The notes beneath the pieces are model-generated. The model had not been told where the DNA came from, ran no database searches, and saw nothing but the letters and a program-made list of their open reading frames with translations. This document shows, one piece after another, positions 3,001 to 46,415 of a stretch of 46,415 nucleotides of DNA (within the stretch, counting starts at the first letter, position 1; each line of letters opens with the position of its first letter). Both the position numbers and the translations under genes were made by a program. Source of the stretch: an uncultured Pseudomonadota bacterium (lineage in GTDB: Bacteria; Pseudomonadota; Gammaproteobacteria; Burkholderiales; Rhodocyclaceae); the NCBI GenBank assembly GCA_903951825.1, contig CAJBDJ010000027.1, positions 1-46,415 on the forward strand. The letters run 5' to 3'.

Positions 3001-6000
3001 AGAGTTTGACACTGGAACAGTTGCGATTCGTCCGCATGGGCGATAGCAAATCATTTTTAACAAAACTGCTACCGATCCAGAGAGGGCAAATAAGTTCCGA
3101 TGTTATAGGTCAGATGAAAGAGCTAGATTTTCTTGATCTGTGGTGGAAATCGGCTCTTGAATTGGATGCTTCTTCTTTGACAACTCTCAACGTATCCAGG
3201 CTAACGACGGAACAGGCGTTCCTCAGGCTGCCAGTCTCAGCCAGTGATTGGGTTGATAAAGTTACGCTTCCGCTTTGGGAAATGGCATTGAGTGCCGCGC
3301 AGTACACAATGCTAAAACCCGATGTACTGGCAGGAATCATTGACTCCCTGAATCCCAATCAAGCGCCACTCGGTGCAACCGCATTCTTCATCGCTTCGAT
3401 GACACCAGCCCAGGTCAATCGGCTCACAGGGGCGCAGATTCGAACCGTGGAAGTCTTCAATGCGGACAAATTGTTGCAAGAGCAACCGCAATTCCAACTC
3501 AGAGGAGAACAGCTGGATTACTGCATTGCCGATGGCAGCAGCCTCCTATCGAATCTGGCCAACGTTTCGACACTGAGTCTTGGCGCCTTCCAGAATATAA
3601 GCCCCCGCGCGGTAGCTGAACTGAGCACCGTCAAGTTGTTGGCGATCTGCGCCTCCAGCGCAGACAAATTCCATGCTCTGCCCGGTGCCGGATTCACCGT
3701 AGCGAACCTCAACGGCGATCCAACGCTGGTTGCAGCCTTGAATTCGAACCAGATCGCTACCCTGCAACCCGATTTACTCAGTGCATTGATAGGCACAAAT
3801 CCCGGGGAGCTTTCAGCTCACGGCGGCTGGCTCTCACTGCTCCAGAAAGTCACTCCGTACCAGATCGCCGCCATGAGCCAGCAGAGTTTCACTGCGCTTG
3901 GCTCCGGTGCGGGATATGCCAATTTGTCAGCGGCTCAGGTGGGTGCGCTCAGAGCAGATCAGTTCAGCGTCATCATAACTACTGCTTTTGAGGCTTTCGC
4001 GGAACTTAATTTCTCGATGGTCAGCAGTGCGCAGCTGAGCTATACCTACGATATAGAGCCCACTCATACGGTGTTTTCACTCCTGAAAATGCATCATGTA
4101 ATTAGTTTGGGGGCTGATACGATTCGGGGGTTAAGCGGCTTGCAATTGGCTACGCTAGTTGACAATGCTCCGCTGATTGAATGGCTTTCGACAGAACAGC
4201 TAGGGTTCCTGGGCGCTGATCAAATCAAGAGTCTTGGCAATGCCATATCCTTTCTTCAGTCTAACGCGCTCAAGAGTTTGTCAACCGAGGCAGCAGCCGG
4301 TCTGACCTTGACACAGTTGGGTAAGGGTCTGCGCAACGGTGGCGGCACGACCGTCCTTGAAGCGCTCTCCCCAGAACAACTTGCTGTCTTGCCGCCAGCG
4401 CTGCTCGCGAGTGTGACTGACGATACCGGGCATGCTTCTTTGCGTGCTTTGACCCAGGAGCAGGTCGCGGCCTTAAGTGAAGCACAGATCAATGCGCTGA
4501 GTACCACGCAACTGCGACGCTTGAACGCTGCTGGATTGACCGCTGCACAATTGGGCTATCGCGGCAGCGATACTTGGCCGAAAACCGTTCTTGAAGTATT
4601 GGATCCGCAACAACAACTCAAATATCTGTCGGATGACACGGTACGTGCCTTGAAACCAGCACAACTCCACGCATTGGACGGGGATCAAATTCATTGGTTG
4701 GCACTGGGCTTGGCGGCTACTGTCGACTACAGATTGACTGCCGCTCAGGTCAGTTGCTTGACTCAAGCTGAAATGCAGCAACTCGATCCTCAAGCTGAAA
4801 TGCAGCAACTCGATCTTTTCCGGATGAATGCCAGTGGTTTTAGGCCCTGGATGCTTGATTACAAGGACAGCAACGGGCAGCACATGTTCGCCCTGGCGGG
4901 AAGAAGCAATCCTGCACTTGATGTCAAGTACAACTATTGGCAACTGAGTACTGATTTCGTCAAGGCAATGCCCTCTGCTGATCGGGCTTATTTGCTCGCC
5001 TGGTCAAACGATGTAGTCGATCATCCGAGTCTTCAGCTCACATCCCTGCAACTATTGGGGATGACGGCAGAGGAGGTCAGAGATTACTTTAAGAATACCT
5101 ATCTAGCACATCGAGCCAATGGAACATTCATTCTATCCAATGACCAAATTCACGCCTTGGACACGAGATTGGTCGGTTGGCAAGCTCTTCCTGACTATGT
5201 TCCCGACGAAGCAGGAGTACCCCAAACCAAAGGATTGCTCGATGTATTAAGCGCGGATCAGATCGCCAATCTAGATGCGTCGATGTTCCGTATGGCAGCT
5301 CAGGCGGGTGGCGACTACGAATTTCTCTTACGTTTGTTAGGTGCTCCGCAAGTCGGTGCATTGACCCGTGAGCACTTTGCCGGCCTAACTGACGGCCAAG
5401 TAAAGCAGCTTGATCATGCTGAGGGTCTGACCACTGAACAATTGTTCTACAAGACCTCAAATAACTATGAAGTTTGGTATTGCCTCACGCAAGCTCAGAG
5501 GAAGGCTTTATCCGTTGAGACAATCGGTGCCTTGTCCGCAGCGCAAATCGCAGAGTTGGTGAACACTGCAGGTCGTACTGCACTCGAGGACTACAATCCG
5601 CTCGGGTGGACCGCAAAGCAGTTTGTGGACTTCCGCAGTACTCACGGTTCTTTTCTTGGCGAGTACGTACAACGTGTTTCCGTTCCGGGCGATACCTCTG
5701 TTGCAATGAATGTGTCGGCAGAGGTTGTTTCTACGTTCAGCCTGACGGAATTTAACTCGTATCTATTTGAACGGGATGCGCATAGCACATCCAATTGGAT
5801 CAACCTGCAGAATTTGGATGTGTCTGCTCTCAAAAAGGAGCAAATTTCTTATTTTGTGGGGAACGAGTACCTCTTATACAGGCTTCGTAGAAGTCAACTC
5901 TCTGTCTTACCGAAAGAGACCGTCGCCTCTCTTAATGCGGATCAGCTTGGCCAATTAAGAAACGGCACGGTTTCTGTTGCCGGCCGTTGTCTCGACGCTC

Positions 6001-9000
6001 TGAATGCTGCCTATTTCACCGCAGATCAACTGAGGTTCGCGCTCCAGTCCGATGGGCAAAACTTCGGCAGCCTTCTACAGAATCTGAGCAATGATCAGCT
6101 GAAGCAACTCGATGCCGTGCAACTCTTCCAGCTGACTGATGCAGAAATCGCGGTACTGACTCCCCAGCAGTTTCAACAACTTCCAGGCGCCGGCTTGACC
6201 CTGGCGCACTTGAGAGCCACGCTCTCCGGGGGAGTGCTTGCCAAAACGCAGCTGACCGCAGCGCAAATGGGCAGCCTGCGCAGCGAAATGTTGCTTGAGA
6301 TGACGACCGGTGAATTTCCTGACGTCTGGAGCCTATCGAGCCAATTGACGGCGGATAAGCTAGGTCTATTCAGTCCAGACAAGGTTGAGAAATTGGTTGC
6401 CAGTACGCTGACCGGCGATCAACTGAGCCGCTTCAGGCGCTCAATTCCCGGCAGTCTTTTCGACTACCTGAGCGAAGACCAGGTGGCTGCCCTGAGTGCT
6501 GTTGCACTGGGCAATCTCGGCGCCGAAGAATTCCGTGACCTCCGCCCGGCTCAGGTAGCCCGCTTGCAACTGGCTCAGCTCAGCCAGTTGAATCGTGAGC
6601 AAATTCAAAACCTCGATGCCAGCGGCTTGACTGCGGTACAAATCGCGTGGGTTTTGTCGTCGAACATATGGCTCCTCTCGTTCTTGAGTAACCAGCAACT
6701 AGGCAGTTTGAACACCGAGGCGGTGGCGGCTTTGACGCAAAACCAGATCGCCCACCTCAGCCGTGAGCGGATACAGCAACTCCGGGGGGATGGGTTGACT
6801 GCCCGCCAACTGGATTATCCGGATGCGACAGGCTTAGCGACTGTCTATGACGACTTGACCCGCATCCAGCGTCTCTCGCTGGCGCCAGCCACCTTGTTGG
6901 GGATGACCGACGCCCGGTTGACCCAGTTGGTGGGTGACGATCTGAGCGCTCTGACGCCGGCGCAGCTTGGCGCCTTGCGAGCCGGGTTTGTGGGGGGGCT
7001 AAGCAAAGATCAATTATTGACGCTCTCTGTTGACCAACTTCAGGCACTCAATGTTCACCTGTTGGACAGCACGAAGCTCAAGCTCACCTATCCGCTTTGG
7101 TCGACGACCACCTTATTGCAAAGTCTGAGCTTTGAGCAGGTAGCGATGCTGCAACCGAGCGAATTATCGAAATTGGGCACCGACGACTTTGGCAAGCTGA
7201 CTGCTGCACAGGTTGCTGGATTGACCGATCTCCAACTGGCCTCCTTGAACGAGACCCTGATACGTGCGGTTACGGCCGCAGAAGGTTGGTTGGCCACCCA
7301 GTTGGGCAAAGCCACCAGCTCGGGGAGAAACGTCTGGCAGGCGCTGGTGGCAGGCGGAGATGCGAATGTCGCCTGGTTGTCGAAGTTGTCGGAAAACACG
7401 GTAGCGGCGCTTGATCAAAATTATTTCGGCCTCCTGAGCGTTGCCCAAGTGCAAGCCATCAATGCCGCCGGATTGGTCAAGAGTCAGGCCAAGGATCAGC
7501 TTGCTTGCACGATCCAAACGGGTCAAACCGTCTGGCAGGCGCTGGTGGCGGGCGGGGATAGCAATGTCACCTGGTTGTCGAAGTTGTCGAAAGAAACGGT
7601 AGCAGCGCTTGATCAAACATACTTTGGCACCTTGAGCGCCGCCCAAGTACAGGCCATCAATGCCGTCGGACTGCTCAATGATCAGTTTGCTTGCACGATT
7701 CAAACGGGTCAAACCGTCTGGCAAGCGCTGGTGGCGGGTGGGGACAGCAATGTCGCCTGGCTGTCCAGGTTGTCGGATGCGACGGTGGGTAGTTTGCAAG
7801 CGGCGGATTTTGCTAGCCTGAGTCTGACTCAGGTGCGAAACATCAACGCCGCCGGGCTGAAGCATGAACAAATGCATTTTCGGAACATGAACGGTCTGAC
7901 CACTCTTCTCTCGCTCAGTGACCGGCAATACGCTGATTTGCCGGCCGATACAGTGGGTTCAATTATTTCTAGTGGAATGGGTTGGCTTTTCGAGGAGCAG
8001 ATTCGACGGTTGACAGGTGCGGGATTTAGCTACGATCAGTTGTCCTACCATATTAATCATGACCTACAGGTAGGGACGGGTGCTACGGTCCTTGAGACCC
8101 TCTCAGGCTATCAACTGTCGCAGTTGCAAGACGCGGTGTTCAGTCAGCTTAACGATGGTCAGCTTGGGCAGTTGAAGCCAGATCAGGTGCTGGGGTTGAC
8201 CGAGCACCAGTTCGGTTTGTTGAAGGCGGTGTCAATACAGCAGCTTAAGGTTAATCAGCTGAGTTCGGATCAATTGCGCTACCTCGATTCGTCAGGGGTG
8301 ACCACGGTTTTGAGCGATCTCACGGTTCAACAGTGGGGAATGCTGTCTAAGTCGACTCTGCAAGAATTGACCCTGGACGAGATCCATGCGATGCCGGGGC
8401 AAGCGGTGAATTACCTGAGTACTGATCAACTCCACGCCTTGAGTAAATGGCAGATACAGCAATTCAGTGATGCAGCGCTGGAGGCGCTGGAAACCAAGAA
8501 ACTGACTGATCCGGATAAATACGGAAATACAATTTTTAGCTACTTGAGTGGGAGTCAGATCATCCAAGTCAACAGTGCGCAACTTGCCGAGATTGACGAT
8601 CTCAGCGTGTTCGGGGGCCTCAAGACAGGGCAGGTCGCGTCGCTGACAACGGGGCAACTCGCCGTATTGAGCCGGCAACAACTGCAAGCCATCAGCGCCG
8701 CCAACGGTTGGTGGATTGATCAGTTGAACACCGTGACAACGATTGATGATGACGTTGGCGGCAAGAAAACTGTCTGGCAGGTGCTGGTGGAGAATACGGA
8801 TGCCAGATGGCTAAAAAAACTGTCGCCCTGGACGGTGAGTCATTTAAATATCAATCAACTTCAAGGTCTTTCCACGATCCAATTGCAGGCATTGAATGCC
8901 GCTGGTCTGCAGGAAGCGCAACTCATTACTAGTGTTTTGCAGGCGCTTAGCACCGACCAGCTGGCTCAGTTGAATGTCCGGGATTTAGGCAAGGCCACGT

Positions 9001-12000
9001 TACTGTCGCAGTACAGCGGTAGCGCGATTGATGGCAGATTGATCAATCTGCTGACACCTGCACAACTCAATGATTTGTCTGAGGCCACGCTTCAGTCACT
9101 GGTCGCGAGTGACATTGACCAATTCACGACGGCGACAATCGGCAAGTTGTCGGCACGTACCGTCAGCTTGTTGCCGATTGCGGCACTCACCCCAATTTTG
9201 CTCAATGAACTGAGTGCCAATGGCGTTGCGGGTTTGACTGAAGCGCATTTCCAAAGTTTTGATGATGGTCGGTTCGTGTTTCTCCTGCATCACCCCAGCA
9301 TGATAAATGGATTAACCTATGCCCAACTGTTTTATCTGGGTGCGAATAAGTATTCGCTCTACTCGCCGGGTGTATCGGGCGACGCTGTTTTGGGCAACGC
9401 CGTTGCCCAGTTGAATCAATCCACGTTCAGCCAATTAACCGCCGACGATTTCATTTATCTGCTGAAAGAGGGGCGGGTGACGCTGATCAACGGCGCCTTC
9501 TTTACCCGGGCGCAACTTGATTACTTCGATGGCGATGGCCAGTGGGTCTTCTCGCGTTTGACGCCCAACCAAAAGACGGCATTGGCGCCGCCTGTTCTGG
9601 CACAGCTCAGCGACGCCCAGTTCGATGACCTGCTTCAGACGAATGCCATTGACTGGGACGGTTACAGTGCACAGCAAGTAGCCGCCATCCGACCCGAGCA
9701 TGTGGCCAAATTGAATTCCGGGGCCATCAATGAACTCAGTGCGGCAAAAGTCCAGGAACTTGATGCTTCCGGTTTCATCACGGAGCAACTGGCTTGGGGC
9801 ATCCGAGGGGGCTCGCCGGGCACGGGCGGAACGCTTCTCGCCGCCTTGACCTCGTCGCAATTGGCCAACCTGAGCCCCACCGCGCTTGGCGCTCTATCAC
9901 CATCCGACTTCAGCAGCCGATTCGACATCGACGCCTTGGCGCAGTTGTCGGTGGCTCAGCTTGAGGCGCTGAGCAATGATCAGATCAAGGGACTCCCGCT
10001 TGAGAAAATCATCGCGCTCGATGTGAGCGCCTTGTCGGTGTCCCAGTTGCAGCTGACGCCGACCGCGGGAGGCAACGCGAAACAGGTCTGGCAGTTGATT
10101 GTCGAAAATCCGGCGTTGCAAAGAGCTGATCTGGGTGCTTGGCAAATCCCCTCGGCAATTCTGGAGGCGGCGAAGGCCACCTACGTCAATAACACATGGC
10201 CAGCGGGGATCATTTCCGCCCTGAGTGCAGCGACGCTCAATCAACTTCAAAAAACCAATAGCAATCTGGCCGATATTTCCAACTGGTTGAGTGTTGCGGA
10301 TGTCCAGAAAATCAACCCGCTGGTCGTTGGCGATCTGAGCCTTGAGTTTGTTCAATCCCTGAGCGCGACCCACGCCTTCAATTTACTGGAAGGCCAGTTA
10401 GCGCAGATGCACCCATGGCAAATAGCGGCGTTGAAGTCCAAGCCTTTTGTCAAAATGAGTATTCAGGAAATACAAAACTTGCCAATGACGGCGGGAGTAT
10501 TGGGTCAGGGGCTTTCGGCGCAGAGAGAACAATTGAGCTGGGTGAATGTAAGTGCGGAAGTGCTTCAAACCGCCTCCCCCCAAGCCCTTATCCAATTGCA
10601 TCCCGACAAAATTAAAGACTTGACTATTGAGCAGCTTAAAAATATTCCTCTGACCAGCCTGATGCAACTCTCGAAATCTCAATACGACAGGATTTCAGAC
10701 CCAATAAGAGAGGCGTTGGTCGGGCAGTACATTGACCTCAAAAAATCCCCCAGCGCGAATATAGGGAGAATCAAGAATCTGTTGCCGGGGCTCTGGTTCA
10801 CCGATCCGTCACTCAATCCCTCAGGACCCACTCAGCAAGGCCCGCTTACTGCACTCAGGGAATTTTATACTGCGATGACGGCAACGCGAACAGCGTACGG
10901 CTTTTATCATAACTTGAACATCAATTGGGCATCGGCTGGTGGGAGCTATGTTAAACCACTAAATGATCCTGGTGCCCTTGTTCTTTTGGACAGATTTAAA
11001 GATAACTATAAAAAAACCGTCACTTCGACAAAGACGATGCTGCAAGGCGGGCGCTTGTTTGGATCGCTCATGGCATTCGGCGCTGCAACCGATGCATGGA
11101 CGTACGCCGGCGAGCGAGCAAACAACGAATTCGAGAGGGGCGTCTATATTTTTCAAGGCTTTTCCTACTTGTTCAGTGCGTTGCAGGTACCTTGGGCGAC
11201 TTTCATGCCAATGGCAAAGGAGGGAGCAAGCTTCACCTCAAAAGTTGGGGGGTTTACATTCCTGAAAGGCTGGGATAAGACAAACTATAAACAATGGGCA
11301 AACTTTAGAGAATTCAGGAATAACTCTAATATTCAGCGATTAACCGCAGAAGATCAGCTTGAAAAGAGTGAGGTAAGATCTAGGGTATTTATTACAGAAC
11401 TCCAGCAGTACGATCATATGTGCGCAGATGTCAGGAGTATAAATGAGATTGAATTTGTCAATAGATACGGCATGATGCCGCAAGAATTCGAAGCAAGGGA
11501 AAATTCAAAATTTCTGAAGACATTGGATAATGAATTCGAATTTTCAAAACGCTTAAGATGGAGTGATTTTAAGAAAAAATCTAAAATAAATTTTAATAGC
11601 AAAGCATTCCTTATTGATGCCGGCCTTATGTTCCTTATCTCTGATGCGTCGGGAATTGTATTAGGAATACTGCAGGCAGTTGCTGCGTCACAAAATGCAG
11701 GCAATTTGACTGATGAAGAAAAAAATCGAGCCATCCTGAGCGGCTCGATTGCTGCATTTAGTTCAACAATGATGTTTATTGGAGATCTTTTGCCAATTCT
11801 TTCCAAGCTTACGCCTGCTGAAGAGAGGGCGGCCCAGCAATTCGGGCGTCAGCTCGGATATAAAGTCGGCAGCGAAAATTATATTAAGTCGGTAAAGTTA
11901 AGAATGGTTAAGGAGGAATTGCGCGGATTTATTAATCCAGCTATTGTAAATTTAATGACTGATGTACAGCTAGAGTCAACAGTAAATTTCGCTAGGATCA

Positions 12001-14561
12001 CTGATGATGATGCTCTTGTTTATTCGCTGTTTGATGATCTTGCGATAGAAGAAGGGTTTATTAGTGCCTCCATTAAGGCTGAGAGTGCGGCCGCGCTAGA
12101 CGTCGCCACCGATCTCGCTGAAGGCCCTGCCGGACGCGTTGGATCGGTTTTTCTGGAGATTGGTTGGTGCGTACAGTATTTGTTTAATGGTGTGAATTCA
12201 ATTCACCAAAGCCATAGCAGATACAATAAAACAAAGTCGGACGGCGATCATTTCGCCATGATAGGTAATTACGTTGAGACCTTTGCGGGAACGCTTGCGT
12301 TGTTGGGAGCGATTGCCTTTGGCGGTGGGTGGGCAATACTTGGGGCACAGATTTTCTTGGGAATACTTCCTGATGTTAATCAATGGGGTCGCAGCATAAA
12401 CTTGGGAAAGAGGCAGTCAGAATTGCGAGATTACGGTTGCCGTGTTTTGCCGAATGTGATTTTTGATGAATTAATATATAATACTAATGTTCAAGTATTT
12501 CCTGTAGCTGGGTGGTTAGTGCAGTGGTTCTCCGGAACCCGAGTTTCCGATTTGATGAAGAAATCAGGAAATTTTGCGACAGCAGTCAAAGAGGGTGAAT
12601 TTATTCGTCTCAAGGAGAATGGAGCAGCCAAAAATATTTCTGAGGCGCTGGGTAAATATTTTAAGTCAGATGCGAAAACTGGTGATCCAACCTCGGAGCA
12701 TGTGTATAGCAGTACGATCCAGATTCGTCTCGGGCTTCAAGCGCATTCGAAAGACTTCAAGATCACAGGCGATCTGGATGATCAGGTCTACAATTATTGG
12801 TCGAGCGCGATAATTTCGAGGCCGGAAGTGCGAACGAGTAATTTCAGCCTGGACGACGTTGTTGTTGGGTTTTATGATTCCGCTGACCCCGGTCTGGTTA
12901 ATGTTAATACCACGGTTTCTCCGGGGGAAATTAATGTTTTAGGCGAAGGGGTGATTGTCGATATTGATGACGCATCTGCAGGTAAATTTTCTCGCGCTCG
13001 AGAAACTATTGATTTAAGCCAGCAAAAAGCAAATTTGATCGTTCACGTCAAGGCCGGCAACTTATCTATAAAAGACGGTGCTGGCACTGACACCTACCTG
13101 ATTAATTTTGATTTTAGAGACTCTGTCACTGTAGATGCGAAAAGTAATGATGTCGTTTGTATAACTCCTGACCCCGCTACTCCCCCACCCCCAAACCAAG
13201 GGATTTTAGGTTTGTCTGGTGCTGGGGGTATAAATGACCTCACTATAAACTTGGATCAGTTCGGCAGTGCGCTGGTCAGCGCCCGGGGGGGCAAGAATAC
13301 AATCTCCGGCACCCAGGCTCATCAAAACTACGCGTTTGTGCCGGGTGCGGAAGAAGATACCATCACCATGAGCGGCGGCTTCGGGGCGGCCAAGGTCGCG
13401 GGTGGTGCGCAAGTCACGATGGCCGGCGGCAACAATAAAGTTTCTCTGGTTCTTGGGCTGGCGCGCGCTGAGGGCAAGACAGCTCCTCGTCAGACGACTG
13501 TATTGAATGGCGGAGCGCCGGCCGATAGCCAATGGCTCTCCGAGGATAAATTTGCCAGCGGTCTCAATGATCTATCCTTTGATGCATCCGCCAGTGGAAT
13601 CACCATGACTATTCTCGACGAGCAGCAAAACTCCACATTTAGTACGTCGGATTATGCGAACACGGATACGTGTTACGACTCGGGGACGTTCACGTATTTT
13701 CAGAACATCGCCGGTTCTAACTACAACGATACGATCACTATTGAAAATACAACCACTTTGAATATGCTCCAGTTGGGTACAGGTAACAATCTTATTAATC
13801 TTAACAATTCCCAGGGGGTGGAAATTTACTCGAGAGCCATGGGGTCGAATGTGTTCTCACTCAATAATCAGTCCGAAGCCTTGATTGAAACAAAGGGGGC
13901 CGCGGTTTCGTTTATTAATGTTTTGAACGATTCTTCCCTGCTTGCCAAGTTGGGTGGATTAAGCGATGTGGTACAACTGAATACGGCCAGCACTAACATG
14001 GCAGCCAATATCATCACCAAACAAGGTGTGCACACGATCAATATCGACACGAGTGGCGCGGATATTCACGTTTCGGCTTATAACAACCTGACGAATATCA
14101 ATCACACTTATCGTACTCATCAAGACAGTGGAGATTATGTGGATGATGACGGCTTGGTCAGGTTTGACTTGGGTGCCTCGATGTTCGGACAGTTGATTCG
14201 GAGGACGCAGAGCGGCATTCAGGTGGTTTCGTCGGATGGTTCCAATCAGGTGCTGAACTACAACCTGCAGTCGCCATCGGATATTACTAGCGGCGCATCA
14301 AGCGTATTAGATGTGCTTGCTTTCCAGGATAGTAGCAATCTCATGCAGGATCTCAGGCAGTATCGCTTGGACAACGTCTGGATGACCGGGCGCCCGTCGC
14401 TCCTGTCGGATGCCACCTGGACTGCCGATCTTGAGTCCATGATTCAGGCGATGGCGCATATGGATGCAACACCGGGGGCTGCCAGCGCAACTACCCTTTT
14501 TCAAGGGGAAACTTATTACCAGGTGGTTAACGTGTTCAACGCTATTCCGCAGGCCGTCTAA
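3..14561 (+). CDS. Giant multidomain repeat protein, probably secreted (5' end outside window)
   Basis: The reading frame is open from the first complete codon to a TAA, so the true start lies upstream; the GTG at 9 is just an internal codon. Counting from that GTG, the visible 4,850 residues contain: Ig-like modules (about 1-215), seven FG-GAP repeats (about 216-690), RTX nonapeptides (about 728-757), a beta-rich linker, a huge leucine octad array (about 930-3565), a region with several hydrophobic glycine-rich stretches (about 3680-4150), and an Asn/Ser/Thr-rich beta-type region to the end. RTX motifs without an internal signal suggest type I secretion, but no transporter genes are in view. 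Possible roles are a large adhesin or a toxin; no catalytic domain is recognisable. GC content changes sharply inside the gene: 43/60 G+C at 901-960 versus 19/60 at 11581-11640, suggesting a mosaic origin. The reading frame is sure; the function is not. Confidence 0.9.
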   Translation, partial: AGVAKGNAPLKAGDKIILTINLNEAASGLVGLPTAGGINSSVIKFDDTGKSAVWSQSGNTLVLTYTVANGDSGAVTIDKTMLTARLRAINIRDVAGNAAVIPEFNLTDPTNNVDTTAPSLTIDQTNSTIAGDGLISARERADGVRLSGTTETGSSVTITTGTGASVAATVDASGNWSATLPAACLPTTGNVTFNVTSTDVAGNTTTATRSARMTAAQGFVINGQSSGDVSGYSVSAAGDVNGDGLADLIVGAHGANGGAGRSYVVFGNSGGTPIDLSAIASGSGGFVINGESADDESGYSVSAAGDVNGDGLADLIVGAAWGSDPAAGANAGRSYVVFGKADGTAVNLSAVADGSDGFVINGQQPFDLSGYSVSAAGDVNGDGLADLIVGAYWADVVAGRSYVVFGKTDGTAINLSAIAPSSGNGSGGFVINGEQRLDWSGYSVSAAGDVNGDGLADLIVGAWASDPAAGADAGRSYVVFGKTDGTAINLSAIAPSSGNGSGGFVINGQAASDYSGISVSAAGDVNGDGLTDLIVGADTSGRLAGRSYVVFGQTDGTAVNLSAIADGSGGFVINGETAGDVSGYSVSAAGDVNGDGLADLIVGAYGANAYAGRSYVVFGKANGTAVDLSAIANGTGGFVINGQSAGDYSGYSVSAAGDVNGDGLADLIVGAYGANGSAGLSYVIFGKTDTGAVNLADVVTGGDAAHAIDYSGTTGHDTHIGTAAAEIILGGVGNDTLDGGGGGDVLNGGVGDDTLIVDGLLVAALGAGSRFDSASGLVARVDGGGGFDTLRLTRGASLNLTIANAAAGAPEIGSRLANIERIDLATDRNANILTLSAADVIDMAGMNLINNSGTGASAGWLSGSYTLQTIERQHQLVIDGGRTDKINLLGQWTNAGTVKRNGVSYHVFQSQTARAQVLVQSVAAPAAPLAPGLMTPEQVGALRESQLRNYSPLELQALKGAGFTSEQLAWSFSTGSAAAAPLWQKLSDNQLQHLDKKAVESLTLEQLRFVRMGDSKSFLTKLLPIQRGQISSDVIGQMKELDFLDLWWKSALELDASSLTTLNVSRLTTEQAFLRLPVSASDWVDKVTLPLWEMALSAAQYTMLKPDVLAGIIDSLNPNQAPLGATAFFIASMTPAQVNRLTGAQIRTVEVFNADKLLQEQPQFQLRGEQLDYCIADGSSLLSNLANVSTLSLGAFQNISPRAVAELSTVKLLAICASSADKFHALPGAGFTVANLNGDPTLVAALNSNQIATLQPDLLSALIGTNPGELSAHGGWLSLLQKVTPYQIAAMSQQSFTALGSGAGYANLSAAQVGALRADQFSVIITTAFEAFAELNFSMVSSAQLSYTYDIEPTHTVFSLLKMHHVISLGADTIRGLSGLQLATLVDNAPLIEWLSTEQLGFLGADQIKSLGNAISFLQSNALKSLSTEAAAGLTLTQLGKGLRNGGGTTVLEALSPEQLAVLPPALLASVTDDTGHASLRALTQEQVAALSEAQINALSTTQLRRLNAAGLTAAQLGYRGSDTWPKTVLEVLDPQQQLKYLSDDTVRALKPAQLHALDGDQIHWLALGLAATVDYRLTAAQVSCLTQAEMQQLDPQAEMQQLDLFRMNASGFRPWMLDYKDSNGQHMFALAGRSNPALDVKYNYWQLSTDFVKAMPSADRAYLLAWSNDVVDHPSLQLTSLQLLGMTAEEVRDYFKNTYLAHRANGTFILSNDQIHALDTRLVGWQALPDYVPDEAGVPQTKGLLDVLSADQIANLDASMFRMAAQAGGDYEFLLRLLGAPQVGALTREHFAGLTDGQVKQLDHAEGLTTEQLFYKTSNNYEVWYCLTQAQRKALSVETIGALSAAQIAELVNTAGRTALEDYNPLGWTAKQFVDFRSTHGSFLGEYVQRVSVPGDTSVAMNVSAEVVSTFSLTEFNSYLFERDAHSTSNWINLQNLDVSALKKEQISYFVGNEYLLYRLRRSQLSVLPKETVASLNADQLGQLRNGTVSVAGRCLDALNAAYFTADQLRFALQSDGQNFGSLLQNLSNDQLKQLDAVQLFQLTDAEIAVLTPQQFQQLPGAGLTLAHLRATLSGGVLAKTQLTAAQMGSLRSEMLLEMTTGEFPDVWSLSSQLTADKLGLFSPDKVEKLVASTLTGDQLSRFRRSIPGSLFDYLSEDQVAALSAVALGNLGAEEFRDLRPAQVARLQLAQLSQLNREQIQNLDASGLTAVQIAWVLSSNIWLLSFLSNQQLGSLNTEAVAALTQNQIAHLSRERIQQLRGDGLTARQLDYPDATGLATVYDDLTRIQRLSLAPATLLGMTDARLTQLVGDDLSALTPAQLGALRAGFVGGLSKDQLLTLSVDQLQALNVHLLDSTKLKLTYPLWSTTTLLQSLSFEQVAMLQPSELSKLGTDDFGKLTAAQVAGLTDLQLASLNETLIRAVTAAEGWLATQLGKATSSGRNVWQALVAGGDANVAWLSKLSENTVAALDQNYFGLLSVAQVQAINAAGLVKSQAKDQLACTIQTGQTVWQALVAGGDSNVTWLSKLSKETVAALDQTYFGTLSAAQVQAINAVGLLNDQFACTIQTGQTVWQALVAGGDSNVAWLSRLSDATVGSLQAADFASLSLTQVRNINAAGLKHEQMHFRNMNGLTTLLSLSDRQYADLPADTVGSIISSGMGWLFEEQIRRLTGAGFSYDQLSYHINHDLQVGTGATVLETLSGYQLSQLQDAVFSQLNDGQLGQLKPDQVLGLTEHQFGLLKAVSIQQLKVNQLSSDQLRYLDSSGVTTVLSDLTVQQWGMLSKSTLQELTLDEIHAMPGQAVNYLSTDQLHALSKWQIQQFSDAALEALETKKLTDPDKYGNTIFSYLSGSQIIQVNSAQLAEIDDLSVFGGLKTGQVASLTTGQLAVLSRQQLQAISAANGWWIDQLNTVTTIDDDVGGKKTVWQVLVENTDARWLKKLSPWTVSHLNINQLQGLSTIQLQALNAAGLQEAQLITSVLQALSTDQLAQLNVRDLGKATLLSQYSGSAIDGRLINLLTPAQLNDLSEATLQSLVASDIDQFTTATIGKLSARTVSLLPIAALTPILLNELSANGVAGLTEAHFQSFDDGRFVFLLHHPSMINGLTYAQLFYLGANKYSLYSPGVSGDAVLGNAVAQLNQSTFSQLTADDFIYLLKEGRVTLINGAFFTRAQLDYFDGDGQWVFSRLTPNQKTALAPPVLAQLSDAQFDDLLQTNAIDWDGYSAQQVAAIRPEHVAKLNSGAINELSAAKVQELDASGFITEQLAWGIRGGSPGTGGTLLAALTSSQLANLSPTALGALSPSDFSSRFDIDALAQLSVAQLEALSNDQIKGLPLEKIIALDVSALSVSQLQLTPTAGGNAKQVWQLIVENPALQRADLGAWQIPSAILEAAKATYVNNTWPAGIISALSAATLNQLQKTNSNLADISNWLSVADVQKINPLVVGDLSLEFVQSLSATHAFNLLEGQLAQMHPWQIAALKSKPFVKMSIQEIQNLPMTAGVLGQGLSAQREQLSWVNVSAEVLQTASPQALIQLHPDKIKDLTIEQLKNIPLTSLMQLSKSQYDRISDPIREALVGQYIDLKKSPSANIGRIKNLLPGLWFTDPSLNPSGPTQQGPLTALREFYTAMTATRTAYGFYHNLNINWASAGGSYVKPLNDPGALVLLDRFKDNYKKTVTSTKTMLQGGRLFGSLMAFGAATDAWTYAGERANNEFERGVYIFQGFSYLFSALQVPWATFMPMAKEGASFTSKVGGFTFLKGWDKTNYKQWANFREFRNNSNIQRLTAEDQLEKSEVRSRVFITELQQYDHMCADVRSINEIEFVNRYGMMPQEFEARENSKFLKTLDNEFEFSKRLRWSDFKKKSKINFNSKAFLIDAGLMFLISDASGIVLGILQAVAASQNAGNLTDEEKNRAILSGSIAAFSSTMMFIGDLLPILSKLTPAEERAAQQFGRQLGYKVGSENYIKSVKLRMVKEELRGFINPAIVNLMTDVQLESTVNFARITDDDALVYSLFDDLAIEEGFISASIKAESAAALDVATDLAEGPAGRVGSVFLEIGWCVQYLFNGVNSIHQSHSRYNKTKSDGDHFAMIGNYVETFAGTLALLGAIAFGGGWAILGAQIFLGILPDVNQWGRSINLGKRQSELRDYGCRVLPNVIFDELIYNTNVQVFPVAGWLVQWFSGTRVSDLMKKSGNFATAVKEGEFIRLKENGAAKNISEALGKYFKSDAKTGDPTSEHVYSSTIQIRLGLQAHSKDFKITGDLDDQVYNYWSSAIISRPEVRTSNFSLDDVVVGFYDSADPGLVNVNTTVSPGEINVLGEGVIVDIDDASAGKFSRARETIDLSQQKANLIVHVKAGNLSIKDGAGTDTYLINFDFRDSVTVDAKSNDVVCITPDPATPPPPNQGILGLSGAGGINDLTINLDQFGSALVSARGGKNTISGTQAHQNYAFVPGAEEDTITMSGGFGAAKVAGGAQVTMAGGNNKVSLVLGLARAEGKTAPRQTTVLNGGAPADSQWLSEDKFASGLNDLSFDASASGITMTILDEQQNSTFSTSDYANTDTCYDSGTFTYFQNIAGSNYNDTITIENTTTLNMLQLGTGNNLINLNNSQGVEIYSRAMGSNVFSLNNQSEALIETKGAAVSFINVLNDSSLLAKLGGLSDVVQLNTASTNMAANIITKQGVHTINIDTSGADIHVSAYNNLTNINHTYRTHQDSGDYVDDDGLVRFDLGASMFGQLIRRTQSGIQVVSSDGSNQVLNYNLQSPSDITSGASSVLDVLAFQDSSNLMQDLRQYRLDNVWMTGRPSLLSDATWTADLESMIQAMAHMDATPGAASATTLFQGETYYQVVNVFNAIPQAV
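654..2075 (+). repeat. Seven FG-GAP (integrin-type beta-propeller) repeats
   Basis: Seven consecutive units begin with Gly-Phe-Val-Ile-Asn-Gly at 654, 855, 1071, 1284, 1509, 1710 and 1911. Each contains SVSAAGDVNGDGLADLIVGA or a close variant, then SYVVFGK. The D-x-N-G-D-G-x-x-D loop is the calcium-binding loop of FG-GAP blades, and seven units is the number needed for one closed propeller. The units are 60-75 residues and very similar at DNA level, which implies recent duplication or gene conversion. Such propellers usually mediate adhesion or ligand binding on extracellular proteins. Confidence 0.92.
2190..2277 (+). repeat. Short RTX calcium-binding nonapeptide patch
   Basis: The translation reads GGVGNDTLDGGGGGDVLNGG followed by VGDDTL, about three copies of the G-G-x-G-x-D-x-L/U nonapeptide of hemolysin-type calcium-binding repeats. 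The family is typical of type I-secreted proteins, where calcium outside the cell drives folding. The patch lies between the propeller and the long octad array instead of near the C-terminus, its more usual place. Confidence 0.85.
4764..4817 (+). repeat. 27-bp tandem duplication inside the giant gene
   Basis: Two adjacent 27-bp copies (4764-4790 and 4791-4817) differ only at the final few bases and encode QAEMQQLDP then QAEMQQLDL. Copy length is a multiple of three, so the frame is kept. It is a nine-residue unit and so breaks the local octad phase by one, showing that the array still gains units by slippage or recombination. Confidence 0.9.
7332..7850 (+). repeat. Three recent tandem copies of a 62-66-residue super-unit
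   Basis: The stretch encoding VWQALVAGGD recurs at 7332, 7530 and 7716, spacings of 198 and 186 bp, followed each time by nVxWLSKLS-type sequence, an ALDQxYFG-type octad and QVQAINAxGL. The first copy has four extra residues. Diverged relatives appear near 8770 (VWQVLVENTD) and near 10080 (VWQLIVENPA), so the same super-unit occurs elsewhere in the array. Confidence 0.9.
11046..12500 (+). other. AT-richer region of the giant gene with hydrophobic glycine-rich segments
   Basis: Within the giant frame this part encodes several long apolar stretches, for example around 11046-11215, 11604-11708 (AFLIDAGLMFLIS), 11733-11811 (FSSTMMFIGDLLPIL) and 12282-12377 (TLALLGAIAFGGGWAILG). Such blocks in giant secreted proteins can be pore-forming or translocation segments, as in RTX or large clostridial-type toxins; I see no sequence motif that proves this. 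The composition is clearly more AT-rich than the flanking repeats, suggesting a different origin. Confidence 0.55.
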
Positions 14562-39935: not shown

Positions 39936-41276
39936 ATGGCAAAATTCAGATTCATCGACCTATTTTCTGGTCTGGGGGGCTTTCATGTCGCGCTCGAAGC
40001 GCTCGGTGGTAAGTGCGTTTTCGCTGCGGAGATTCAGCCACATCTGCAGACGGTCTACGAGGGCAACTTCGGGCTAAAGCCTGTCGGTGACATCCGGAAC
40101 GTGCTTCCTTTCGAAGTGCCGGACCACGACGTACTGTGCGCAGGTTTTCCCTGCCAAGCGTTCTCGAAGGCTGGTGACCAAGCTGGCTTCAAGTGCTCCC
40201 GCCAGGGAACACTGTTTTTCGACGTGGTCGCCATACTTCAGGAGAAGCGTCCGCGCCACTTCATCCTTGAAAATGTACCCAACCTCCTCAAACATGACGA
40301 GGGCAAAACCTATACCCGCATCAAGCAGGACCTTGAGGCGTTAGGTTACTGCGTGACTGAGAAGCAGTTCTCCCCCCACCATTTCGGCATCCCGCAGGTA
40401 CGGGAGCGGGCGTACATCGTCGGCCGGCTCGGCTCACTGGAGGGATTCGACTGGCCGGAGCGGGAGATGCTCCCGACCGACATCACCGACGTGCTGCTGG
40501 ACTCGCCGGGTGATGCGAAACCCTTGTCCGCGCAGACGCGCCTCTGCCTTACAGTGTGGAACCGGTTTCTGGAGCTATCCCCGCCTGACGTCGACCTGCC
40601 GTCATTCCCCATCTGGTCCATGGAATTCGGTGCCACCTATCCATTCGAGGATACCACCCCGTACGCAGAGAGGGCTCGCGGCGGTGCAGAAGCCTTGGGA
40701 ACCTACTTGGGTACACACGGCAAGCCGCTAGCAGGGTTGCCGCACGACGAGCAGTGGAAAACGCTGCCGAGCCACGCCCGCACGGCTCAAGAGCAGTTTC
40801 CGAAATGGAAGAAGGATTTCATCCGTGCCAATCGCAAGTTCTACGCGGACAACCGACACTGGATTGACCCGTGGCTGCCCTCGGTCAAGCCCTTTATCTC
40901 CTCCCACCAGAAGTTCGAGTGGAACGTACAAGGTGGCGAGCGAGACCTGTGGAAGTACGTCATCCAGTTCCGCGCCTCCGGCGTCCGCATCAAGCGCCGC
41001 ACCACCTCGCCCAGCTTGGTGGCGATGACCGATACGCAAGTTCCTATCATCGGCTGGCAGGAGCGCTACATGACGCCAAGCGAATGCGCGAAGCTCCAGA
41101 GTCTGGGCAACCTTAAGCATCTGCCTGAGCCGCAGGGTCGGGCCTTCGCGGCACTCGGCAACGCAGTCAACGCCAAAGTTGTCGAGAAAGTCGCCCGCGC
41201 ACTGCTTTTCCAGCCGGCCTATTCCGAGAAAGAGCAGATTACCCCTGAACGCGTCCCCCTCCCGGAAGCCGCATAG
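39936..41276 (+). CDS. DNA (cytosine-5) methyltransferase
   Basis: Transfers a methyl group from SAM to C5 of cytosine in a specific DNA site. The 446-residue protein has the C5-MTase motifs in order: [25 protein letters not shown] with the nucleophile Cys73, [26 protein letters not shown], and X AALGNAVN near the C-terminus. Between VIII and X lies a long variable region (about 170-380), the target-recognition part, whose target cannot be read from sequence. It is the first gene of a four-gene operon and would protect host DNA or mark it for the other three products. The start is the ATG at 39936, which gives motif I at the expected distance. The next gene begins two bases after the stop. 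Confidence 0.96.
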
Positions 41277-41278
41277 CC

Positions 41279-42853
41279 ATGGATATGACCGTAACTGCCG
41301 TCCCGAGCATCAACATCCGCCCGGAAGTGAGCATGCTTTCTGTGCTGAAGCATCTCAATTACAAGGCGTGGTTCGCTGTCGCGGAATTCATCGACAACAG
41401 CATCCAGAGCTACCTAGCCAACGAGGATGCGTTGAGAAAGGTCGAGGGTGCCGATTTCAAGCTGCAAATCCATATCGGACTCGACGCGTCGGCAGGCCGT
41501 ATCGAGGTAAGCGATAATGCCGCCGGTATCGCGCTGGCAGACTTCCCGCGGGCTTTCCGACCCGCCGAGGTGCCCCCGGATAGTTCTGGCCTGTCCGAGT
41601 TCGGCATGGGCATGAAGGCCGCCGCATGCTGGTTCACGGACCTCTGGCAGGTCCGCACCAAGGCGCTTGGGGAGCCGTTCGAGCGCATCGTGCGTTTCGA
41701 TATCAGCGACATCGTCAGTCACAAGACGGAGAACCTCCTTGTCGAGGAGGTGCCGGCGGACCCATCCGCGCATTACACAATCATTACACTGGAGCAACTG
41801 GGTCCCCGCTTTCCGCCAGCCCGGACACAGAAGAAGATGAAGGACCACATCACCAGCATCTATCGCATGTTCCTGCGGCGTAACGACATCGAATTGATAT
41901 GGGATGCCGACGGTCAGTCCTTAGAGTTTGCTGAGGTGGCCATCCTCGATGCTCCGTCAGCCACAAATCCACATTTGCCTGCGGTTGAGTGGAGAAAGGA
42001 CCTACACCTGGATTTCGGCGTGGGCCGCACCATAAAGGGATTTGCCGCACTCCGCGCAGAAGGTTCCACAACGCACGCTGGCTTCGCCTTGTTCCGTAGG
42101 AACCGGCTTATCGTCGGCAGCGACGACGAGACGTTCCGCCCGCAGGAAATTTTCGGCAATACAAACAGCTACCGCTACCAGCGGCTGTTCGGTGAACTGC
42201 AGGTAGAAGGCTTCGAGGTCTCCCACACCAAGGACGGTTTCAAATGGAACGAACTCGAGCATGAGGTGCTTGAGCGTCTGCGAGCCGTTTTGGAGGAGGA
42301 GCCGCTGAATCTACTCCGACAGGCCGAGCAGCACCGCACACGGCAGACGCGTGCCACTGTCAAGCCTGCGGCCCAGAAGGCGACGGAGGTTGTGACCACC
42401 GACCTAAAGAAGGGCGCCGGTCCGGTACTCAGCACTGCGCCGGCTACTCCGGAACTCGAGCACGTTATCCCGCCGACCTCGGCACGTCTCGACCCCGACC
42501 CGGTTTCGCAGCGCTCAGTGGAAATCCTAGTGGATGGCAAGCGTTGGCACATCACCTTGCGCATGACGCTGGACCCGGACGCGAGCGAATGGCTGCGCTT
42601 CAGCAATGAGATGGTGTCCCAGTTGTTCGACGACCTGGAGGAACATCGCCTCACTGTGGATGTGTCCCTAGACCACCCCTTCGTTGAGCAGTTCGTTGGC
42701 CCGGACAACGAGAACATGGAACTTATGCTCCGCTTCGCCACGGCCATCGCCGTGGCACTGACCAAAATGAAGCACAGCGGCGCCGACCCGAGGCTGCCGT
42801 TGCATTACATCAACCGCCTCTTGCGCGATTCCCTCTCAGGTAAGCTCCAATGA
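41279..42853 (+). CDS. GHKL ATPase, MORC/MutL-like, of a restriction-modification operon
   Basis: A 524-residue protein with a GHKL (gyrase-Hsp90-kinase-MutL) ATP fold at the N-terminus. The N-box is AEFIDNSIQSY (Glu36, Asp39, Asn40), motif II is SDNAAGI (Asp79), and motif III is SEFGMGMKAAA. An S5-like second domain follows (about 200-330), with GFALFRRNRLIVG and the conserved-looking FGELQVEGFEVSHTKDGF. A variable linker (350-420) precedes a C-terminal part with VEILVDGKRWHITLRM and a helical end. MORC-like enzymes clamp DNA on ATP binding, so a role as an ATP-gated clamp in defence is likely. The stop overlaps the next start (ATGA). An alternative ATG lies two codons in (41285). Confidence 0.9.
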   Translation: MDMTVTAVPSINIRPEVSMLSVLKHLNYKAWFAVAEFIDNSIQSYLANEDALRKVEGADFKLQIHIGLDASAGRIEVSDNAAGIALADFPRAFRPAEVPPDSSGLSEFGMGMKAAACWFTDLWQVRTKALGEPFERIVRFDISDIVSHKTENLLVEEVPADPSAHYTIITLEQLGPRFPPARTQKKMKDHITSIYRMFLRRNDIELIWDADGQSLEFAEVAILDAPSATNPHLPAVEWRKDLHLDFGVGRTIKGFAALRAEGSTTHAGFALFRRNRLIVGSDDETFRPQEIFGNTNSYRYQRLFGELQVEGFEVSHTKDGFKWNELEHEVLERLRAVLEEEPLNLLRQAEQHRTRQTRATVKPAAQKATEVVTTDLKKGAGPVLSTAPATPELEHVIPPTSARLDPDPVSQRSVEILVDGKRWHITLRMTLDPDASEWLRFSNEMVSQLFDDLEEHRLTVDVSLDHPFVEQFVGPDNENMELMLRFATAIAVALTKMKHSGADPRLPLHYINRLLRDSLSGKLQ

Positions 42854-45111
42854 CCATCACCATCGAAGAACTGCGTGGCATTAAGCCGGACCTACGTTGG
42901 GAGCCGATGCAGGGCGAGGCCACCGGGGACTTCCTGCGACGCAAGGAGGCCGCAGGAGAAGCCAAGGCTGATGAACTGCATACCGTCGCTTTCGAGGCCC
43001 ACCGTATCCTTGGACGTTGCGTTCCGCCCAGCGAGCCGCGCGGGGATGCCACTGGGCTGGTGGTGGGCTATGTACAGAGCGGCAAGACCTTGTCCTTCAC
43101 CACCCTCACAGCACTAGCCCGAGACAACGGTTACGGTCTCGTCATTCTCATCGCAGGCACCATCGACACGCTGAAGAGCCAGTCCGAGGAGCGGCTCATC
43201 CAGGACCTCGGCCTCGCCGGCGACAAGCCGGGAGAGCCGTGGGTGCATATCGCCAATCCGGCCACTGGGACCAGCGATTTTGACGCGCTCAAACTCATGG
43301 TGTCCCGCTGGAAGTCCACGGTTGTGCCCGCCCGTAAGAAGAAAACCATCCTCATCACGGTGCTCAAGCAGCATCAGCGCCTGGCGAGTCTCGTCGAATG
43401 TCTCGCGCACAAGTCGCTCAACCTGCAAGGCGTGCCCTGCCTTGTCATCGACGACGAGGCCGACCAGGCGAGCCTAAACAACTTCACGGCGAAGAATCTG
43501 AAGACGAGGCAGAACCGAGTTAGCGCCAACTACCGCGAGGTCACTAACCTCAAGGCAGTGCTGCCACATCACACCTACATCCAATATACGGCGACGCCGC
43601 AGGCCCCGCTGCTCATCTCGCTCGTGGATGGGCTTTCGCCGGATTTCGCCGAAACCCTTACCCCCGGCGCCGCGTACGTCGGAGGCAGCGTCCTCTTTGC
43701 GCCTCGCTCGCCGTACGCACGCGAAATCCCCACGGTCGAGGCTACGGCGGTGGCCTCTACCTACCCGATGACGCCCCCAACGCTGCTGGCGGCGCTGCGC
43801 CTGTTTCTGCTCGGGGCGTGCGCGCATGCGTTGTCCGGGGCAGATTCCAATCGCTCGATGATGGTGCATCCGTCGCAGCAGACCGCACCGCACACGCAGT
43901 ATCTCACTTGGATAAAGGCACCGCTTCTCGCGTGGAAGGAGCAATTGGGCAACGACGAGTTGCGCGAACTCCTACTGGAGGACTTCAAGGCAGCTTACGA
44001 GGACCTGAAAAAAACCATCGGGGACGCCTTGCCGACACTGGAGGAGCTGTTCGGGATGATGGGTGAGGTGCTTGCAACTGTAATGGTCCGAGAGGTGAAC
44101 TCCACCGGCAAGGGGGCCGACCCCATCCGCTGGGGCGACAACGAATACTGGATTTTGGTGGGTGGCCAGAAGTTGGACCGCGGCTACACTGTCAAAGGCT
44201 TGACGGTAACCTACATGCCGCGACCGCTTGGGGTCGGCAACGCTGACAACTTGCAGCAGCGCGCCCGGTTCTACGGTTACAAACGCAGCTACCTGGGGTT
44301 CTGTCGGGTGTATGTGCGGGACGACGTAAAGAGGGCCTTCGAGGCCTACGTAGAGCATGAGAACCTCATCCGCACCGAACTTGACCTAACCCGTGGCCAG
44401 CCGCTGAAGGAATGGCACCGCAAGTTCATTCTCGCCAATGGCTTGAAGCCGACCCGCCGTAACGTCATGGGTATCCAGCTCGACGAGGTGGTGACGTCGG
44501 AGTGGTTGCATCCGAAGGCGGCCTACGCCAACAAGGGCGCTGTCACGGCGAACCGTAGGTGCTTCACGGCCTTCGTATCCTATCTCCGCACGCACTTCGA
44601 CGAGGTAGAGGCGCAGGAGGTGGCCCCGGACCGCTACCTAGACAGGCGGACGGATTCGCCGCGCAACAAGCTGTTCGAAGCCGTACCCTTGGTGGATGCT
44701 TTCTCCCGCCTGCTGGATGCGATGCATCTGGATGACGTGCGGGATGCGACCGAGCGCACGGCCCTCCTCATCGCACTGGGGCAGTTGCTGACGGCGACGC
44801 CCGACGCGAAGTGCGACGTGTTCCTCATCGGGGACCTGCAGTCGCAGAACCGCGCCCTGACGGCCAAAGGCACCATCAATCAGGTGTTCATGGGTAAGAA
44901 CCCCAACACCGATGACCGGGGGCGGTTACGCTATTGCGGTGACCGGGACCTGCGTACGGAGGGTAGGGTCACGCTGCACTTGCGGAAGTTCAGCTTCCCG
45001 AAGTCGCCCGTTCCGCCCGAGGATGACAGCCTAGACGTGCCTTGGTTCGCCCTGCACATCCCTGACGCGTTGAAACGGCGCGTATTGCTAGAGCCGGAGC
45101 GCGCGGCATGA
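42850..45111 (+). CDS. Z1-domain superfamily-2 ATPase
   Basis: A 753-residue protein of the Z1 family, related to SF2 helicases/translocases. It shows Walker A VGYVQSGKTLS (Lys79), motif II CLVIDDEADQAS, motif III-like QYTATPQAPLL and motif V-like GGQKLDRGYTVKGLTVTYMPR. Motif VI-like NLQQRARFYGYKRSY supplies arginine-finger residues. The C-terminal 230 residues have no motif I know. In comparable operons Z1 proteins are thought to act as DNA-dependent ATPases working with the nuclease. It overlaps both neighbours by four bases (ATGA at 42850-42853 and 45108-45111), so stoichiometric co-expression is likely. Confidence 0.93.
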   Translation: MTITIEELRGIKPDLRWEPMQGEATGDFLRRKEAAGEAKADELHTVAFEAHRILGRCVPPSEPRGDATGLVVGYVQSGKTLSFTTLTALARDNGYGLVILIAGTIDTLKSQSEERLIQDLGLAGDKPGEPWVHIANPATGTSDFDALKLMVSRWKSTVVPARKKKTILITVLKQHQRLASLVECLAHKSLNLQGVPCLVIDDEADQASLNNFTAKNLKTRQNRVSANYREVTNLKAVLPHHTYIQYTATPQAPLLISLVDGLSPDFAETLTPGAAYVGGSVLFAPRSPYAREIPTVEATAVASTYPMTPPTLLAALRLFLLGACAHALSGADSNRSMMVHPSQQTAPHTQYLTWIKAPLLAWKEQLGNDELRELLLEDFKAAYEDLKKTIGDALPTLEELFGMMGEVLATVMVREVNSTGKGADPIRWGDNEYWILVGGQKLDRGYTVKGLTVTYMPRPLGVGNADNLQQRARFYGYKRSYLGFCRVYVRDDVKRAFEAYVEHENLIRTELDLTRGQPLKEWHRKFILANGLKPTRRNVMGIQLDEVVTSEWLHPKAAYANKGAVTANRRCFTAFVSYLRTHFDEVEAQEVAPDRYLDRRTDSPRNKLFEAVPLVDAFSRLLDAMHLDDVRDATERTALLIALGQLLTATPDAKCDVFLIGDLQSQNRALTAKGTINQVFMGKNPNTDDRGRLRYCGDRDLRTEGRVTLHLRKFSFPKSPVPPEDDSLDVPWFALHIPDALKRRVLLEPERAA

Positions 45112-46091
45112 CCGCGTCCTCCCTTTGGGAACGGTTCGAGGCGCTCGGGCAGCATGATGGAGCCGGCGTCCTGACGGCCCTCCGCCTGCCGGGGGATGGT
45201 ACCCATTTTCTGGCCAAGGGGTTGGCTGGTGAGCCGGTCATCCTGTTGTGCGCGGGCAAGCGCCGAGTGCCGCGTATCCCGCTCGGTTTGCGCCACATGC
45301 AGGTGGAGTTCGATGTCGAATGCGCCGTTCGCGACACAGTCGGGGATGCCGCCGCGACACCGGTTTCCGCAACCTTCTGCCGGGCCACCTGCGACCCCGG
45401 CACCCCAGGGCTGCACCCGCTGTTTGTCCATGCCTTGGCAGGTGCTGTCGGGAGGCTTCCCGCAAAATTATCGCCGGGCGAGGCAGACCGTTTCTTCGAC
45501 GACGCAGTGGAGTTGTTCCGCGCTTTCGCCGCTCCCGCCCGCACGTCGGTGCTCGGCCTATGGGGTGAACTGTTTCTCATCGCAGTGTCGCCTTGCCCCG
45601 ACGCAATGTTGTCGGGATGGCATGTGTCACACGAGCAGGTATTCGACTTCGCTTTCCCGACCGCCTGCGTGGAGGTCAAGACCACGGCCCGGCACAACCG
45701 CCAACACGATTTCGCGCTGACGCAGTTGCGCGGCGCCCATCTACCGGTATTCGTTGCCAGCATTGTTGCGGAGCGAAGCGATGTGGGGGAGTCTATTTTC
45801 GACCTCGCCTCCATCATCCAGGAAAGCTTGACGCCAGCTAACCGCGTCAAGCTGTGGCGGCTCGTAGCGGAGTCGTTCGGTGGCGAAGCGGAAGGGGCTG
45901 CTGACTTGCGCTTCCTGCGAATGGCTGCGGCCAACTCTCTGCGCTTCTACGCTGCGGCAGCGCTGCCGGCTCCTGAGGTGCCTGATGCCGTGGCATCGTG
46001 CGTATCTGCTGTAAGGTTCAGCCTCGACTTGGACCGTGCGCCAACCTTGGTGCCGCTCACCGAGTCCGAGGTCTGGCAGACGTTGAAATAG
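45108..46091 (+). CDS. PD-(D/E)XK nuclease (DUF4420-like)
   Basis: A 327-residue putative restriction endonuclease. The catalytic core is VFDFAF (Asp180) followed by CVEVKTTAR (Glu189-x-Lys191), preceded by GLWGELFLI (Glu154), the layout of PD-(D/E)XK enzymes. A beta-rich N-terminal domain (1-120) with VPRIPLGLRHMQVEFD may bind DNA or partners. In related operons this family follows the Z1 gene. It overlaps the Z1 stop by four bases. It has no downstream partner on the same strand: 209 bp later the next gene is on the opposite strand. The nuclease activity is inferred from motifs. Confidence 0.88.
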   Translation: MTASSLWERFEALGQHDGAGVLTALRLPGDGTHFLAKGLAGEPVILLCAGKRRVPRIPLGLRHMQVEFDVECAVRDTVGDAAATPVSATFCRATCDPGTPGLHPLFVHALAGAVGRLPAKLSPGEADRFFDDAVELFRAFAAPARTSVLGLWGELFLIAVSPCPDAMLSGWHVSHEQVFDFAFPTACVEVKTTARHNRQHDFALTQLRGAHLPVFVASIVAERSDVGESIFDLASIIQESLTPANRVKLWRLVAESFGGEAEGAADLRFLRMAAANSLRFYAAAALPAPEVPDAVASCVSAVRFSLDLDRAPTLVPLTESEVWQTLK

Positions 46092-46299
46092 CCGTTCATC
46101 TCCGCAGCCATTTGAGTGCATTTCCGTTCAGCAGCAGATAACTGGCCTATCCAGTTCGGATAGCGCGTGGCCGACCTCGATGCAGCCTTTGGCTATGGGG
46201 ATGTGGTGAGCGAAAGGCTTCGAGTTCCGATGTCTGCAACTTATCTCAAATGCAGATTTTCTTGATTTGTTCCTTCTATTGCTCCGGCCCGATGAAGTC
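46092..46299. other. Non-coding gap after the defence operon
   Basis: This 208-bp stretch separates the nuclease stop from a minus-strand partial gene. No terminator hairpin with a T-run, tRNA or recognisable gene is visible. Minus-strand frames of about 60 codons exist but resemble nothing and overlap the neighbouring gene. The right copy of the flanking direct repeat (46292-46308) lies at its right end. Confidence 0.5.
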
Positions 46300-46415
46300 T
46301 TAAGCGGCATACTTAACACGCCGATCCTGGAAGTAGCTCATAACGCGCTCAGGATTTTGCTCCAGCATCATCATATGAGCGCTGGTTGCGTCGCGTAATT
46401 TGGCTTTGGTGCGAA
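46300..46415 (-). CDS. C-terminus of an unidentified protein (runs off right edge)
   Basis: The minus strand encodes 37 codons ending in TAA at 46300-46302. The visible end includes RTKAKLRDATSAHMMM and LEQNPERVMSYFQDRRVKYAA (read in two parts). It looks like real coding sequence: basic and helical, with an ordinary codon pattern. The stop overlaps the AAGTCTTAA core of the flanking repeat. I do not recognise the family. A mobile-element or integrase gene bordering the island is one possibility, but nothing here proves it. Confidence 0.45.
   Translation of the reverse strand, partial: RTKAKLRDATSAHMMMLEQNPERVMSYFQDRRVKYAA

Follow-up and report, generated by a model that had tools for sequence, protein, structure and literature searches.

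Organization of the cassette

The window, the whole 46,415-nucleotide stretch analysed here, is from an uncultured Rhodocyclaceae bacterium and constitutes an entire contig (C27) of a 2.6 Mb genome in 75 contigs. Near its right end, four plus-strand genes at 39936..46091 make up a complete and well-bounded cassette of ~6.2 kb, encoding a C5 cytosine DNA methyltransferase, a MORC-family ATPase, a Z1 ATPase, and a nuclease. An earlier note made from the sequence alone had placed these genes, separated by a 2-bp gap and two ATGA overlaps, and both positions and junctions were reproduced. Its family calls also hold: all four products exceed Pfam curated cut-offs in profile searches (PF00145, PF13589, PF10593, and PF14390, the last three being products of adjacent genes), and all four frames and their catalytic motifs are undamaged. 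The features are as follows.

39936..41276, + strand: gene 1, C5 cytosine DNA methyltransferase, 446 amino acids (PF00145, TIGR00675, PADLOC DruM2, PDB search, alignment)
40518..40985, + strand: putative target-recognition region, methylase residues 195-350 (identity to orthologues versus other C5 methylases)
41279..42853, + strand: gene 2, MORC-family GHKL ATPase, 524 amino acids (PF13589, conserved motifs, structure model)
42080..42112, + strand: S5 motif GFALFRRNRLI, gene 2 residues 268-278 (fits GhXhhpXXRhl)
42850..45111, + strand: gene 3, Z1 / SF2 helicase-like ATPase (PF10593)
43066..43089, + strand: gene 3 feature (motif analysis)
43450..43470, + strand: gene 3 feature (motif analysis)
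44245..44283, + strand: gene 3 feature, compare helicase motif DThhQXuRhFG (motif analysis)
45108..46091, + strand: gene 4, DUF4420 PD-(D/E)XK nuclease, 327 amino acids (PF14390, 2.5e-12)
45567..45725, + strand: nuclease active-site segment E154...D180...E189-V-K191...Q206 (alignment)
46276..46415, no strand assigned: multi-copy repeat outside the system, marking an assembly break (copies in own genome)

The four proteins

Gene 1 matched PF00145 at 1.7e-63 and TIGR00675 at 4.9e-67, together with 61 PADLOC families headed by MTase_II and DruM2, the DruM2 profile covering residues 3-426. The catalytic part is M.HhaI-like by PDB search, and the C5 methylase motifs are invariant across the alignment. 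The putative target region, its limits drawn by eye from the alignment, is 45-94% identical to those of ten orthologues (catalytic core 55-90%) versus 14-28% (core 30-44%) for five other C5 methylases of the neighbourhoods examined (L055, L059, and L061-L063); in the three farthest relatives, by contrast, similarity in the variable parts of the restriction proteins drops to 17-28%. Because the target region is conserved and there is apparent exchange, the alignments suggest, without proving, that one recognition sequence is common to the whole family, which predicts that this sequence could be obtained from a single methylome.

The gene 2 product consists of a GHKL domain, an S5-like part, a coil, and a C-terminal alpha/beta domain. 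Its GHKL ATP-binding motifs are invariant in the alignment; in the structure model the S5-like part carries the basic residue K318, and structural alignments to MORC3/SMCHD1 cover residues 15-358. The MORC-defining S5 motif GhXhhpXXRhl was matched in the gene 2 product, in 7/7 close orthologues tested, and in L059, while 2000 shuffled versions of the gene 2 product gave 7 hits; residues G268, L271, R273, R274, R276, and I278 are invariant in all ten rows of the alignment. The protein thus combines the GHKL motifs and S5 domain by which a MORC is recognized. Two distant GHKL operons (L060 7399-11903 and L082 3125-7781) are laid out alike but with partners of other classes, in the order N6/N4 methylase, GHKL, Rad25-like helicase, and a protein of about 265 amino acids with no Pfam match and a D...ExE pattern by eye; the strict S5 pattern was not found in either.

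Gene 3 carries Walker A/B and QQRxRF motifs, and its structure model matches Mfd, RecG, RIG-I, RadD, and FANCM over residues about 17-540. The PF14390 cut-off was exceeded by 11/11 nucleases, namely the gene 4 product and ten orthologues; gene 4 had no PADLOC match.

Genomic setting and distribution

The contig stops 324 bases past the operon, within the repeat, of which the genome holds seven more copies at 99-100% over 138-142 bases plus one 47-base match. Six of those seven sit at contig ends, and, window included, seven contig ends break on the repeat; the interior copy (L071) adjoins an ISL3-family transposase (PF01610, 8.1e-63). At the other end of the window, a single ORF of 4852 amino acids (3-14561) runs off the contig start, and G+C drops along its length from about 0.65 to 0.44. 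In the same genome, mutL is present elsewhere, and Vsr was not found.

The nearest homologue (L010), likewise intact, is 82-92% identical, the figure also for the copy in Thauera aminoaromatica S2. Methylase and nuclease genes are paired and co-inherited in 11/11 complete loci, with a Mantel correlation between the two of r 0.807. A NO VEIN C-terminal domain protein (PF13020) lies immediately 3' of one cassette (L056 14346-15488), and a MazF/PemK-like toxin gene just 5' of another (L011 5616-5906).

Interpretation

The cassette looks like a mobile restriction-modification kit, which would methyl-tag host DNA and cut untagged foreign DNA with two ATP-driven helpers, one of them related to the MORC proteins that silence genes in animals and plants. 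Methylase and nuclease are paired and co-inherited, as in a restriction-modification system, and the interpretation offered in the earlier note is supported in part.

A relationship to MZA, with the methylase as a passenger, was judged unlikely. MzaB, MzaC, and MzaD are the sole NCBIfam matches of genes 2, 3, and 4, PADLOC gives a weak MzaB alone for gene 2 and MzaC second to Helicase_II for gene 3, and MZA itself is cited as validated (PMC9523054). However, the NCBIfam scores of 24.2, 119.1, and 19 bits fall far under the equivalog cut-offs of 850, 1500, and 420, no AIPR (PF10592) was found in the genome, and a methylase lies directly upstream in 14/14 close loci, which is unexpected of a passenger. 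That the cassette is directed against plasmids might be proposed from the predicted MORC/SMCHD1-like fold and SF2 dsDNA-translocase-like motor, but one copy is itself plasmid-borne, and this seems very improbable. Least probable is that the cassette is decayed or silent in this genome, or serves DNA repair or gene regulation instead of defence: it is patchy within its genus, adjoins an IS-type repeat at the contig end, and gave no promoter match (a weak test), while Vsr genes beside two relatives point to repair links; yet its four reading frames and catalytic motifs, and the nearest homologue, are all intact.

Both a link between MORC and 5-methylcytosine and a putative restriction complex of two ATPases and one nuclease are testable in a laboratory strain, since the cassette is compact, complete, and well bounded, with a close copy in Thauera aminoaromatica S2. 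Literature searches turned up neither experimental work on bacterial MORC proteins from operons of this type nor a laboratory test of this kind of system.

Comparison with known systems

MzaA, a sigma factor of MZA (mzaABCDE) according to PMC9523054, was not seen beside the cassette, which has a C5 methylase instead. The putative system that Miller et al. described in 2022 (PMC9523054) adds AIPR in type II and three further genes in type I, whereas the cassette has the core and MORC only. CglI and NgoAVII (PMC4267653, PMC5737866) comprise three genes without MORC, and their nuclease is PLD-B3 rather than PD-(D/E)XK. The Shedu protein VcSduA (PMC12137116) likewise has a GHKL ATPase, which its authors believe controls a PD-(D/E)XK nuclease, and its phage protection was measured; but it is a single fused protein (DUF4263), and "methyltransferase" appears nowhere in the main text of that paper.

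This kind of system was predicted in 2008, when Iyer, Abhiman and Aravind (PMC2292703) described a third type of MORC operon. In gene content, this type shares with the cassette MORC, a distinct SFII helicase, and an RE-fold nuclease with E-D-ExK, as well as the motif GhXhhpXXRhl; according to these authors, its neighbourhoods frequently include VSR nucleases and DNA methylases, for the most part cytosine methylases. Their helicase motif DThhQXuRhFG has only a partial match in DNLQQRARFYG of gene 3, which deviates at positions 2, 4, and 10, whereas the L056 counterpart DTLQQRARFFG fits except at position 4. The paper also proposes prokaryotic MORC proteins as the source of the eukaryotic, chromatin-acting MORCs.
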